From: Owenia fusiformis
Lineage: Eukaryota; Annelida; Polychaeta; Sabellida; Oweniidae
Direction of reading: 5' to 3'
DNA length: 64,000 nucleotides
Assembly: GCA_903813345.2 (NCBI GenBank)
Contig: CAIIXF020000005.1
Span: forward strand, 22,449,375-22,513,374
A program made the translations under genes and the position numbers. The notes beneath the pieces were generated by a model. That model saw only the letters and a list, made by a program, of their open reading frames with translations, was not told the DNA's origin and made no database searches. Positions within the stretch are counted from its first letter, which is position 1, and every line of letters begins with the position of its first letter. Shown one piece after another: positions 40,901 to 49,900 of this stretch.

Positions 40901-43900
40901 ATTTATGTGATCTTTAGCAGCAGGTAAATGCCTTTTGTTAGTGTTCGATTGTGTAGTTGAGGTACTAGAGCTTTCCCCTTGAGGGGTGTGATGAATCACA
41001 GAGGGCCTATATGTCTCTAGTTTGACAGTATATGGTGGGTATGATATAGGACAAGAATGAGCGATCCCCTGGTGTTTCACTGGAACATATCTATGGGGAA
41101 TAGGTGGCGTGTTAATAACAGTAGGGGTACGTGCTCCACGATAACCACTTCCTGGTGCAACGTTTCGTAAATGTTCCATCTTGGTCATCGAACCCAATGA
41201 TTTTGTGATATGAGTATTTACATCTCCTGTTACACGATGAGCTTCCTTCTTATTCCCCCCAGGAATTGACTGTCTACTACCCCCAGTTACATTTTGCCTG
41301 CTAGTCCCAGGGACAGACTTAGACATATCTGGCTGGTTCCAAGGCATTGATGGATGGGAAAAGCCTGGGGGTAAGGGCCTGTGGTTGTACCCTGTTGATC
41401 CTTGTTTTAAGATTTGTTTACGACGCTCCTCCCATTCTAGTTCCCTCTTGCTGTTCTGTAAGTAAATAAACAGAATATATTAGGGGAAAGTTTGGATAAA
41501 AGGGGGAGGGGGTCTATCTAAAGTACTTAAAATCTTTTACTTCTTTTATGAATTCCTAATATGTTGTATCTCATGTTTAGGGAAGGCTCACATACATTAC
41601 TGTGTTTCAAATATTCAGAATATTTGGTGAAACAAGAATATGCTCCACTCACTGGGGAAACCTTAGCCTGCTGGATTTTCAAGTCATACCTTAACATCAG
41701 CCGATGCATTATGGGAGCTCTGGGGTTGCCATCTTTTATCAACATTAGGTACTAATAACTTTTCATTTTCCTTGATGATGTCACTAACCCGCTTCCTCCC
41801 AGGATGTTTATTGACAGGTATGACATCACCAGTTGTCATGTCACCTTTGACATGACGCTCAAATGGTAATAATAACCTGTAAAGCAGCAATGCATTCAAT
41901 GATAATTAAAAGCAATTTATGCAAAGAAAAATTATGTCATTTGTATTTTATCTCAATTTTATAATATTTGGAAGACATTAAAAATTACAAATTACAATTT
42001 GTGAAGTGATTCAGGACTTTTAGGTTCTTAGTGAAAATCAATCATCAATATTATGCAATTATATCTATGAATTTCAATATTTGTATACAACTCTTACCCA
42101 TAGTTAAAATACACTTTGAAGTAATTCATAACTAGTGATAAAAAATAGTATAAAGAGCAGCTGCTAAAGTGAGACAATTTTTACTCATATTTAATCAAAA
42201 GAGAAGATAAGTGTTACAATGTCTTGATTTCTTTTCATTTTTAGCATATTTGTATCTTTATATTCTGTGCATGTTGAAATAAAAATACCATCATCTACCA
42301 TCTAATAGTATTTTCTTCACCTATATAACTATTTCCATTACCATGTGTATATGAATATTGAGAAGGAGATTGAATGATTTGGTGTCACACAAAAAATCAC
42401 AACGATTCCTTCATTATTGAGAAAGATATTATACAAAATTAGTGGGTGGAAGTTTTTTTGTTTTGTGCCACACTTAATTAATTATACATTATTATTATAT
42501 CCCTCCTGTATGATACCTTCTCTAAATAAAATCTAGTTAAATTCATCAAGTTCTTGTTAAAATCTATATTACTTATATCTACATATGATATGACAACTAA
42601 ACTCTCAAATCATGAATATATTATATAATTCTATAGTACTAGAAACATATAATGGTTAAGAAAAATTGAAGATCAGATCCAATCTTATAATGGTGAGTAG
42701 CTAGCAACATCATGGATATAGCTTCAAACAAAATATTATAAACCAGAACAACGGCAACGCCAAAGCGTAGCGAATCCCATCGAACAGCCATGGATGGCAT
42801 TTTTACAAACAAAGTATATAGCAAAAATGGCAGCCATTTTTCAAAATGGCAGCCTTCTACCAAAAGTGTCATAAGACCATGTGCCATGCTTATAGTATTC
42901 ATATACCAAATATGAACAAAATCGCTCCACTACTTTTCAAGTTATAGTAAAAAACGTTAAAATGGCGGCCATTTTTCAAAAAAAATTTCAAAATGGCCGC
43001 CTTCTACCAAAAGTGTCATAGGACAGTGTGTCATGCTTATAGTAGTCACATACCTAATATGAACAAAATCGCTCCACTACTTTTCGAATTATAGTAAAAT
43101 ACGTTAAAAAGGTGGCCATTTTTCAAAATGGCGGCCATTTTTCAAAATGGCCGCCTTCTAGCAAAAGTGTCTTTAGACAGTGTGCAATGTTTATAGTATT
43201 CAAATACCAAATATGAACAAAATCGCTCCACTACTTTTCGAGTTACAGCAAAAATCGTAAAATAACGAGTAAAGGCCGCCATTTTTCAAAATGGCTGCCA
43301 TGTGCTTCTTTAATATGTACATTTCTAGCTTTATTAATGTCCTATATAATTTTTTTACATCTAAAGCATATTGCTATTACAGTTTTACATATTGCACCTA
43401 AATTACTGTAAATTTGGCACTAAAATGGCCGCCATTTTGAAATGAGCGGCCATTTTGAAAATTGGCTTTCGAGCAGAACTTCTATCCCCATAGGGTATAT
43501 GCGTACAAAATATGAACAAAATCGGGCCAACGGTATTTGAGTTATTGCCCGGACGGACGGACGGACGTACGTACGGACGGACGGACGGACGGACGGACGG
43601 ACGTACGGACGGACGGAGGCGTTCCCTATATCCCTCCGAACTTCGTTCGATGGGATAATTACTTCTCATAGTGTCTGCGTGTACAGGTGGCAGCACTTGT
43701 GTTGCCATGGTTACCACCCATGTGATCATAGACGTGCTTCCATAGACGCTTTGCTGTCACCTGTAGCCAGGTAGAAAGCATATGTAAGAGGCAGGATAGA
43801 GGGCAGCATGTGCTTAGCTCTAGTCACAAAGAATTCCATGTGCTTTTAAATTAACCAGGTTTTAAACACAAATAATACTTTTTGAATTAACAAATAAAAA

Positions 43901-46900
43901 CAAAAGCCAATTTTGTCATAATTTTTAGAACCTCCTTAGCACCAAGCTTATAGCTATTATTCTAAATTGCATTTGGGTTTGAGATAATACAATGGTGTTC
44001 AAAGGTGTATGGTTAGACTTTCTATCCAAGTCTAAAGAAGACAACTTGCGAAATGTGGCCTATTTCAACATTTCTGACAAATCCATATTGACCTGATGTT
44101 AATTATAAGATCTTTCTTTCAATTATAAGAGCACAAGGAAAGATTTGCAACTGAAAAATAGCAACAAAGGTTGAAACTACCTTATAAGTACACCTATTGT
44201 AAGAATACACTTGTGTTTTATGAAATATGCAAGCATCCTTGCAAGCCTCTCATAGAATACACCTGGAGAATAACCAAGTATCTCATAAAACACAAATGTA
44301 TCTTATAACACACAAATGTATCTCATAACACACAAATGTATCTTATTAAAATACAAATGTATCTTATAACACACAAATATATCTCATAACACACAAATGT
44401 ATCTTATAAAATACAAATGTATCTCATGACACATAAATGTATCTCATAACACACAAATGTATACAAGAGTCTGAAACAAGTAAATACACAGGTGTTTCTC
44501 AGATTTACACAAGTGTCTCTTAAACACACATGTGTCTAATAGATATGTCCCAAGAATACAAAAGTGTCATACAGAATACATGTGTCTAAAAGAATATGCA
44601 AATATCTCAAAGAATACGCAAGTAATACACAAGATGTAAATTATTACTCAAACTATATTATTCTATGAAATTAAGTACTAAAACTTAAATACACAGGGTG
44701 CACACAACAACATGAAAATAAAAAATAAAGTCCTATAAGGAAACATATAAGTGTTTCACCTGTTATGGAAGTTTTTAAAACATTTTAAAAGATGTATCTT
44801 TTGTTATTAGGATCATTTTAATCAACTGAAATCATTTAAATCTTTCAAATCCGATGAAACAAGCCAAACTGCGTTATAAGAATTAATAATTTGAATGAGG
44901 GAAGATGTTTTAAATCATTCTTGGATAACAGGCAAAACTGAGTGACAGTCTATAAAATATGAGTGCCAAAATTCTACCATTTCAAAAAATCTAATGAAGG
45001 CATATGAAGGATGTTTTTTTCATAATTAACAGAAGTTTTGCCCATCAAAATATTTAAAAAGAATTTTTGAGAATTTCTACTCAACAATAAATGTCTTGTC
45101 TCATATAGATGAGGCAACAAATATACAGTACAATTAGAGACAAGGAAAACCTTCACATTCTCAAAGTAATATTAGAATGGTGTCATTAAAGAATTTTCAT
45201 TAAAAAGTTTATGTGAAAACATAGACTTTTGACACCCTGTAGATTAAAGGGAACAACAGGTCCACTACCAACAGAGTTTATCTAAAATAAATAACTCTTA
45301 ATTAAATACAGGGTGGGAAAAGGGGTCCTCTATGTGTAAACCAAGAACAATTATACATTTTGAAAAAAAGAAAAATAAAGAAGAAGTAAACAGTCAACTT
45401 TTGAAGCCATTGACATGTCAATAGGTATTTTATTAAAATATGGCTGAAATTTATTCCTAGTGAAGATTTCACCAGTACACATTCAATAACTTCCTCTAAA
45501 AATTTCAGCCAGAAATTGTTGTAAAAATCAATGTTAAAATACAAGACTGGTATGTAGAATGGATTCTTCACAAATTGTTCATGTTTTATATAAGGCATTA
45601 ACTAAGCTCAGAAGTACTAGAACACTATAATATTACATATAATACAAGGACACTTTCCATAGGTATATAACAAATAGTAGTACGTCTGTTTTACTTCTGG
45701 AGGCTGAGGGCCTGGTAGAGAATATTTAGAATATAATAGAATGAATAATTAATTGAAGTATTAATTTTGGAAAGAAAATGTCCTTTTTTACACCAAAATA
45801 TGAAAAAGTTCAAACTGAATGCAATGTTCAAAGGCAAAATCTACAAATATGCCATCTATGATAACATATTTACCACAAAAGAGACAAATATAACAACAAA
45901 ATCTCATTTGTAATCAAAGCAATTGCTGTGACAATATCACTTTCAGTTCAAATTCTAAAGAGCAGAAAAGGAGTGAAAAGTGCAATAAACAGGGAAGTAT
46001 GAAAACATATTGATTATTACTTCTCGTAGTTGCGTCGTGTGCATGTGGCAGCTGCAGTGTTGTTAGGGTTACCACCCATGTTGTCATAGAGATACTTCCA
46101 CAAACGCTTTTGGCTCACCTAAAGATAACATGCAAAATAGAATATTTCCCCAGTCTTGTCTGTAAGAAGGAAATGTTTCATATCCTTGCATTTCTCACAA
46201 TTTAGAGTTTATATTTCATGCCTAAATATATTATTTCCCACTAATTCCAAAGCTTTTTTATTTAATTTGGCATTATAAAACAAGACCATCTCATGCCATG
46301 AAGTGTGAAGCTTCTTTCCCACTGTATTTTGCACAAAGAATGGCTGTCCGTGATGAGTTGCCAACTCCTAATGTTTTCAATGGTAGGCTTGCTCTTTCAT
46401 GTAAACAGTGGTAAAGAAAATCAAGTTCACAGTTGATACATACAAGTGTCAAGTACTACATATAACATATAGTTTATCATACAAAGTTTTTGTAAATGTT
46501 TAAATCAAATAAGAAAGAAGTAATATTAAAATATATGAGATCTTTTTTATGATATTACAAATTATCAACGAAAAGTTAAGTTGAAAAATTTAGCCTACCT
46601 CAGTATATCCTCCAAGTTTCTGAGCAAACGTGTAAAATAAATAGAGGTCAACTAAAATAAGATAAATACAGAGAAGTTTGAATAAACCACATTATATCAT
46701 TTTAATTCTGGCACTGTTAATGTTCTATATGAGACCCACCACCAACCAAAAATACACATATCTGAAAATAAAAGAATTAAGTCCTACAAATTGTTCACAT
46801 TTTCCATGCAAAAACAGATGCATTATAGACTATGTACATAAAATAATACATAAATGGCTCCACTGAGTCCCACAAGCTAGATCCTTTAAATAAAATGGAA

Positions 46901-49900
46901 CCAATAATACTTCAGTACAATAACATACAACACCTTCTCCACAGCCCTTCTTTATTTTGGTTTGTATCCACAAAAATCAACAAAATAAAACACAACAAAT
47001 GCTTTTGAATACATGCATGGAATAAACATGGCTATACATAAACTATGTAGGCTGGGTCCCAAAACCAGAGTTCCAAGCTTCAATGGAGAAAAATAAAATA
47101 GGAAACATGGTATACAGACATACAGATATGGGTGTAGCCAGGCATGGTCAAAATTATGTAAATATATCTCCCATGCCTTAATCTGCCTATTTCCATTTTC
47201 CTTGCCTTTGCCAGGCTACACCACTGTCATCCATGCCAAAAGATAAAATGTGAAGGTAGAATCTCAAGAACCTGATTTCCAATGCACATAAAAAGCTTAT
47301 ATGGAGAAACATGTAATAATAAAAATGGCAGTGTTATCTAGTTGCTATGACAACGATCAAATCAACATGATGTACATTTTCAATTCCATAATTTCTTACC
47401 TTAATTAACTCAGAAAATTCCTCTGATTGCAAAAACAATAATTATCATCAAATCACTAAAAAATTATAACATTAATAATTATATTATCTAATTGTATTAT
47501 TTTATGCTATTATAATGACAACAAAGAAAAAAAGAAATATTTATTCCTTTTATATTAATCTTTTCAGCTAAACACATCCTGTCTATTCCATTTATTTTTT
47601 CTCAAAGAGCTTTTTAAAACCAGGAAACAGCAACTCCACGGAGTAGCAAAACCCACTGAACAAAACAGGTATTTGAGTTATCAAAGATTATGTGTTTTTA
47701 TAAAAAAAATGATGGCCATTTTGAAATTCAGTTGCCATCTTGAAAATTCCTTTTTGGCCAGAGTGGTGTGTCAAAAGGAATTTGTACCAAATCTGTCCAC
47801 TGGTATTTGAGTTATCAGAGAATACACTTTTTTAGGAAACATGGCGACCATTTTGAAATTTGATGGCTGTCTTGAAATGTCTTCTTAATCAGAACTCCTT
47901 TGTCTCTAGGCATCAGCATATAAATTTTGAACCAAATCCATCCATGGATATTTGAGTTATCATAGATTATATTTTTTATGAAAAATGGCCGCCAATTTGA
48001 GATTCAGTGTCTATCTTCAATATCTCTTCTTTTTTAAAGCTCCTTCGTCCCTAGGTATCAGCATATAAAATTTGAATCAAATCTGTCAACTAGTATTTGA
48101 GTTATGTAACATTACATTAAAGAAAAATAGTGAATCAAATTCATCAACTGGTATTCAAGATATGGCCCGGGATCAGGAAAGGACGTCTTTACGGCTTTTC
48201 TTTTTATCCCCCTCGAATTTCGTGCGTTGGGATAATAAAACACATATGATAAACACACATGGGATAAAAAATCATATATTCTCACTTGTCTTGAATCCAA
48301 GAGAAGGTATCCTCTCTATCGGTGTCCCTCGCTCCCTCATGAACTGATGGAGAGCAACCAGGAATTCTTGTTCATTCATCTCCTGACCATTACCTTTAAT
48401 AGTCTTATTGGAGGATACTCCGTTTGGACGCTGCTTTTCTATTGGCTTCTCTTTGGATTCTTGAAGCTTCTCCTGTAAAGATCAACAAAAACAGTTGAAG
48501 TGGATTGAAATTGAGTCTCTCTTCATGATAAATCCACTGATGACAATAGGCTTTCAAAATTAACATCATCGCGTTTCCTCATTTATAATAGTCATAAAAA
48601 CTAGAACAATAGTTTTACTGGTCTATATTGGAGTATATGAGACCATTTAATTTAAAAAGTTCTTTTTAGGTTTGTTTATCACATAAAATTGTAACAAAGA
48701 CCTTGATTCTATGATTTATGGCAAATATATCACCATAAATAATTAGTTCGTCAGTTTTAGGTACTTTAAAACAATTTTCAATCACAAAACCTGCCATTGA
48801 CTTTATACAGGGTGGTCGACATCATTCACACTTTTGATTGCACAGCATTTTCTAATGATAGGTAGATTTCCCAATTTCTTTCATAGACCTATCCTGATCC
48901 TACAGACATGTAGGTTTTGTGTAGTGTTTGTTTTATTATCATATACTACCATAATGTGAGAACAGATCAATAGTTTGTAATGTGCTCAATGCAAGCTCCC
49001 TGCACACATTGTAATGTGCATGTTGTCATAGGGAATTCTCCTCATCTCTGTTTTAATATTCTTTGGCTCATCAATAGTTTGGGGTTTGTTTGCACCTGCC
49101 TTTAAAGTATCCCCATCAAAAAACTTTATATGGAATATGTCTTGAGAATGTGCAGGTCATGTGTGATCCATGCAGTGGGAGATGAGTCTGTCTTCAGGGA
49201 AGTAATGATGAAGGTATTCAAGTGATGGATTGGAGCAGTGCAATGTTGCTTCATCTTGCCACTGTAAGATAACAGTATCAATATCAACCCCTCACTACAG
49301 CGCCAATCCAGGATGAATTCTTTTCTCATAACTTCAATGTATCAGTCCATGTTCACAGGAAATGAACGTCCATTAACATCCTTAAACCATATGGCCAATT
49401 ATCACCATTATGACCTAACATTCGCCAGTCAACTTCTCTACATCACATGTTTGATGCTGATGCTCAGAAGGCTAAACCTGAGCCAAAAAGTGCATTTTCA
49501 ATTTGTTGAAGGTCATTCCAAACTTAAATGTGCAATTAACTACAGTGATTCAGCACCCAAGAGCTTGGATTGAGCACATCTTATGGTGGTATATCAAAAT
49601 GAAAATTACACCATACAAAACATACATGTCTGTAGGACTGGTCTATGAAGAAAATTGGGAAATCTTCCATTAATTAGAAAATGCTTCATAGTCAAAAGTG
49701 TGAATGATTTTTTGACCACCCTGTACATGAGAAAGTTCCCTGAAAATGACATTCTTACTTTTTGTCTATAGCGCTACTAATGTTGAGTAAAAACCGAAAA
49801 CTGTAATTCAAAGAGCTTTCAAGTCTTCCGATGGCATATGTTGCACATACAGCAACCCCTAACATTTATTTGAAAGTTCTAGTTTAGCAAAGTGTTTGAT

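Follow-up and report, generated by a model that had tools for sequence, protein, structure and literature searches.

The 64,000-nucleotide (nt) window analysed here, bases 22,449,375-22,513,374 of contig 5 in the Owenia fusiformis genome assembly (498.26 Mb, 525 contigs), carries on its minus strand a gene encoding an ARID DNA-binding domain, in which one exon of the domain is present as two copies, named exon A and exon B. In the order of the minus strand, the exons are an N-terminal ARID exon with FMRERGTPIERIPSLGFKT (48286..48472; the high-coordinate start was placed by eye from an AG, and the exon ends at 48286), a common upstream exon of 53 nt ending in AQKLGGYTE (46599..46651; phase 0 at its end, donor GAG/GTAGGC), exon A (46021..46118) or exon B (43663..43760), and a common downstream exon read from 41876 and starting with LLLPFERHVKGD (41690..41876; low-coordinate end placed by eye from AAG/GTATGA). 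Exon A encodes a divergent ARID segment, and exon B encodes the segment nearest to human ARID5B. Both exons are 98 nt long, are entered in phase 0 and leave two bases over, the split codon after either of them being completed by the downstream exon.

The spliced ARID scored 80.1 bits with exon A and 85.3 bits with exon B against the Pfam ARID family (cut-off 24.1; the query carried one mistyped residue, common to both forms). Among solved structures, both forms came closest to human ARID5B (MRF-2), with 81.6 bits for A and 92.2 bits for B, and the next-best solved ARIDs reached at most 27.5 bits (A) and 26.9 bits (B). On this ground the host gene is called ARID5-type rather than ARID1, ARID3, ARID4 or KDM5, an assignment made by similarity and not by a tree. 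AT-preferring DNA binding would be expected of an ARID5 factor.

The two exons have intact GT and AG dinucleotides, and their peptides share 24 of 33 residues. These values, together with the coordinates, lengths, phases and peptides, reproduce those given in the initial annotation of this stretch. The local DNA alignment of A with B scored 75, the best of 200 shuffles being 21, and an ungapped scan of the window in all frames found two copies only (next best scores 29 for A and 19 for B, against 139). The whole-genome search with the exon B peptide led to the same two places (3 candidates scored), on which ground a paralogue as the source of A or B was rejected. An ARID family search of the genome listed nine places, and the one at this locus was exon B, below the cut-off. 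Pattern searches of contigs from viruses and prokaryotes gave 72 and 26 stretches, and none of these was confirmed as a relative of the exon.

Splicing outcomes and probable exclusive use

Four splice outcomes were read. With A alone or B alone the frame stays open; with A joined to B, a TGA follows directly after the codon spanning the junction; and with both exons skipped, five codons (VIITI) are read before a stop. An intact frame thus requires one exon or the other by itself, which points most naturally to mutually exclusive use, as there would be no other way for both exons to serve an intact protein, and the frame logic gives good support to the initial annotation, in which the exons were described as mutually exclusive.

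A and B are separated by an intron of 2,260 nt with GT-AG sites, and the last AG upstream lies 36 nt from A and 52 nt from B, so that ordinary branch points fit and a distant one is not needed. Exclusion by an intron too short to be spliced or by a mismatch of U2 and U12 sites is a known route to mutually exclusive splicing, and neither is obligatory. At this locus, steric and U12-type exclusion were both rejected on the length of the intron, its GT-AG sites and the nearby AGs, the U12 status being judged by eye from the donors. Exclusion would then be enforced by splicing factors or RNA structure, together with decay of the wrong products.

Two motifs near the exons may be noted as leads only for splicing control. 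The hexamer TGCATG, the motif of RBFOX splicing factors, is present at 46129-46134 and starts 16 nt upstream of A, but the window has 13 such hexamers on this strand, so that chance is possible. In the A-B intron, a minisatellite with 20/60-nt units (ACATTTGTGTGTTATGAGAT-like, minus strand, 44278..44462) is UGUGU-rich in the RNA, and a regulatory role for it is only a guess.

Selection on the exon pair and the repeat at exon B

The 25 differences between A and B fall 9, 5 and 11 times on codon positions 1, 2 and 3. Silent differences were found in 8 of the 24 codons with the same residue and at 3 of 10 fourfold sites; the initial annotation had taken "many silent differences" as the sign of an old duplication, and of this the presence of silent changes holds while "many" is overstated. 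The comparison of nonsynonymous (dN) and synonymous (dS) divergence between the two versions, which had been proposed as a check, gave dN of 0.18-0.20 and dS of 0.76-1.16 by three methods (a fourth gave no value), with dN/dS of about 0.2 (range 0.16-0.27), and supports selection on the pair. When the 33 codons were bootstrapped (1,000 samples), dN was below dS in 99.4%, with dN/dS between 0.016 and 0.59 and dS ranging from 0.34 up to saturation (9 was substituted for undefined values).

Neutral drift of B was simulated in 20,000 runs, the state of A being defined as an open frame, at least 24/33 residues and intact splice dinucleotides. At 0.15 substitutions per site this state was reached in 21.6% of runs, falling to 1.7% at 0.25 and 0.05% at 0.35; no run reached it at 0.5 or 0.8. 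Over 300 nt upstream, the flanks of A and B aligned no better than chance (68 of 200 shuffles equalled the score), and the duplication is probably not young because these flanks no longer align while the exons do. The results argue for exon A being under constraint and not decaying, unless the duplication is young.

In the intron downstream of exon B, directly beside it, lies a high-copy repeat (42741..43658, minus strand) with the edge TTATCCCATCG..., the end ...GTTCTGGTT and internal 147-nt tandem units. The first base of its constant edge is +5 of the exon B donor. The 32-base core of this edge has 1,407 exact copies genome-wide, and matches to the repeat were found on contigs 1 to 12 and once on contig 170. 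In hand-picked copies, TTA precedes the core in 20/20 and a T stands three bases further up in 20/20, with two variable bases between; this constant T corresponds to +2 of the exon B donor, and GTAATTA precedes the core in 59 copies. Of the other copies listed, the best matches at 95% identity over 320 nt (40 scored of 3,102 candidates). After the insertion, the donor of exon B retained GTAA. It is not claimed that the repeat supplied this donor, as the flanks of the 20 copies support only a constant edge from +5. By eye, the copies compared showed no target-site duplication. Short palindromic AAAATGGCGGCCATTTT-like units at 43106-43155 recur in the repeat as tandem copies of 19 nt and 147 nt.

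Replaced residues and predicted DNA reading by the two ARID forms

The exon B segment is identical to that of human ARID5B in 24/33 residues and the exon A segment in 19/33. Six of the nine A/B differences are assigned to changes in A and one to a change in B, two being unassignable. Because B is nearer to ARID5B and most of the assignable changes are in A, B is read as the ordinary, conserved ARID5 reader and A as the variant; the initial annotation did not contain this point. By approximate region limits, five replacements fall in helix 4, while loop 2 and helix 5 hold two each. The residue changes P/H and N/G in the loop, A/S and N/H had been reported correctly. Compared with B, A has Asn for Gly in the loop, and in helix 5 it carries Ala in place of Ser and Asn in place of His, which turns TRRHYE into TRRNYE. 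A and B both keep the Thr at position 21 of the segment and the two Arg of TRR; position 21 and the TRR Arg were matched to ARID5A T125 and R133 by inferred numbering. At the position of ARID5A T125/S126, matched through the sole Thr-Ser pair in the exon B segment, B has Thr-Ser and A has Thr-Ala. In alignments of five solved ARIDs, the serine column holds Ser in ARID5B, two ARID3A entries and fly lid, the last giving weak support as its row shifts by one column in a second alignment and then shows Val.

In the sections of PMC9077328 and PMC11262183 that were available, helix 4, loop 2 and helix 5 are described as the sequence-specific, major-groove reading unit of the ARID, and the swapped exon sits in this unit, in agreement with the initial annotation, which had placed the swap in the part that contacts DNA. 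The available text of PMC11262183 also reports that the T125A/S126A double mutant of ARID5A, at the start of helix 5, is strongly impaired in DNA binding of the core, that T125 and S126 are expected to touch an AT base pair, and that flanking disordered segments and the C-terminal extension can compensate for mutations of the core. Because an Ala replaces the serine equivalent to S126, the binding of A may be different or simply weaker; the lone Ala may do less than the published double mutant, in which both residues were changed. Altered base reading by A, probably weaker or relaxed, is predicted from these residues, and weaker or relaxed binding appears as likely as a new specificity. Two binding specificities from one locus, as first suggested, are therefore possible and unproved. 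The full form of the idea, in which the choice of the helix 4-loop 2-helix 5 exon gives one ARID5 locus two ARIDs with truly different DNA preferences under developmental regulation, is held tentatively, at somewhat below even chances.

Proposed explanation and its alternatives

The explanation that we favour, with a confidence modestly above even, is that an ARID5-type gene carries a tandem-duplicated exon of its reading unit and uses one copy per transcript, B giving the ordinary reader and A an altered one. The exon encoding most of helix 4, loop 2 and helix 5 would have been duplicated in tandem; the spliceosome would join one copy per transcript, and products with A+B or with neither exon would be removed by nonsense-mediated decay. 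The B version would act as an ordinary ARID5 reader, and the A version, with Ala for the base-contacting Ser and with TRRNYE, would differ in its reading of the major groove, its preference most likely being weaker or relaxed, while its backbone contacts and partners would be kept. The choice between A and B would presumably be regulated by tissue or stage.

Several results weigh against this explanation. The wide dS interval makes a decay of A possible if the duplication is young, and the comparison of the downstream flanks (13 of 200 shuffles reached the observed score) is void, since the flank of B is the repeat. The share of A in the assignable replacements, 6/7, has a two-sided p of 0.125 and fits relaxed constraint too. 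In one of the five aligned solved ARIDs, 1ryu, the serine column is occupied by Ala, next to a gap, so that Ala is perhaps tolerated there. The donors of A and B both lack G at +5. Among inverted repeats of the docking or selector type searched for between 43500 and 46700, six weak pairs were found, and none convincingly ties the surroundings of A to those of B.

It is also conceivable, though unlikely, that the exons are mutually exclusive and that the DNA bound is the same for both ARID forms, with the replacements tuning stability or partner contact or being tolerated drift. This would fit the position of five of the nine replacements in helix 4, outside the loop, the unchanged equivalents of T125 and R133 (Thr 21 and the TRR Arg) in both forms, the Ala of 1ryu, and the ability of the C-terminal extension to offset core mutations (PMC11262183, available text). 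However, the Ala of exon A stands at one position of the pair that, when mutated together, impaired core binding of ARID5A, and the serine column holds Ser in four of the five aligned rows, counting the weak lid row.

Less probable still is that exon A is a slowly decaying relic, rarely or never spliced in, and that B alone makes a working protein. The greater distance of A from human ARID5B (19/33 against 24/33) and its six of the seven assignable changes are what such a relic would show, but A is open, has intact splice dinucleotides and a dN/dS of about 0.2 with B, and neutral runs seldom keep the state of A unless the duplication is young, to which the unalignable upstream flanks are opposed. 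That the repeat has weakened or silenced B, so that A is mostly made in this genome, is very improbable: the edge lies at donor +5 and the 95% match of the best listed copy points to an insertion that is not very old, but B retains its GTAA donor and an open, conserved frame, the donor of A likewise has no +5 G, and the T at donor +2 is matched in 20/20 sampled copies, so the insertion spared the GT.

The favoured explanation, exclusive use of an ordinary and an altered reader, has a close counterpart in FOXP1, where the mutually exclusive exons 18 and 18b swap part of the DNA-binding domain of one gene, and where, according to a review, data on exon usage and protein-binding microarrays revealed different preferred motifs for the two forkhead forms (PMC11701043). 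FOXP1 differs in having a forkhead and not an ARID. Human and fly tandem duplicated exon substitutions are alike in that homologous neighbouring exons of equal phase are used singly (PMC9741552; PMC5740500; available text); ARID, FOXP1 and "transcription factor" are missing from the main text of PMC9741552, and ARID from that of PMC5740500. In the COE/EBF family, an exon was likewise duplicated in tandem within a transcription factor, but the helix-loop-helix (HLH) duplicate is always included in vertebrate transcripts and lies in a dimerisation motif, not a base-reading one (PMC2394523, available text).

Human ARID5A and ARID5B share the helix 4-loop 2-helix 5 reading unit with this gene, ARID5B being its closest solved relative, but no alternative ARID exon is described for them in the portions of the literature examined. 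The two ARID5B isoforms described in the available text of PMC9077328 differ by an extra N-terminal region of isoform 1 with a predicted BAH domain. The initial annotation knew of no ARID5 gene of this kind, and none was found in searches of open-access papers, the wider of them judged by the titles listed; an unremarked isoform annotation may exist, subscription papers and annotation records lying outside the search. Exon swapping in a DNA-binding domain is thus already known as a mechanism from FOXP1, and the ARID5-type gene would be a further case of it.

The DNA choice of ARIDs is poorly settled, and the ARID5A paper, in its available text, doubts the existing consensus motifs (PMC11262183). 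A natural pair of ARIDs from one gene, distinguished by nine residues of the reading unit and the same elsewhere, offers a ready-made test of the residues that determine the preference. If the choice between A and B is regulated, the gene would be an ARID case of the FOXP1 type of switch, in which splicing alters which genes a factor reaches.
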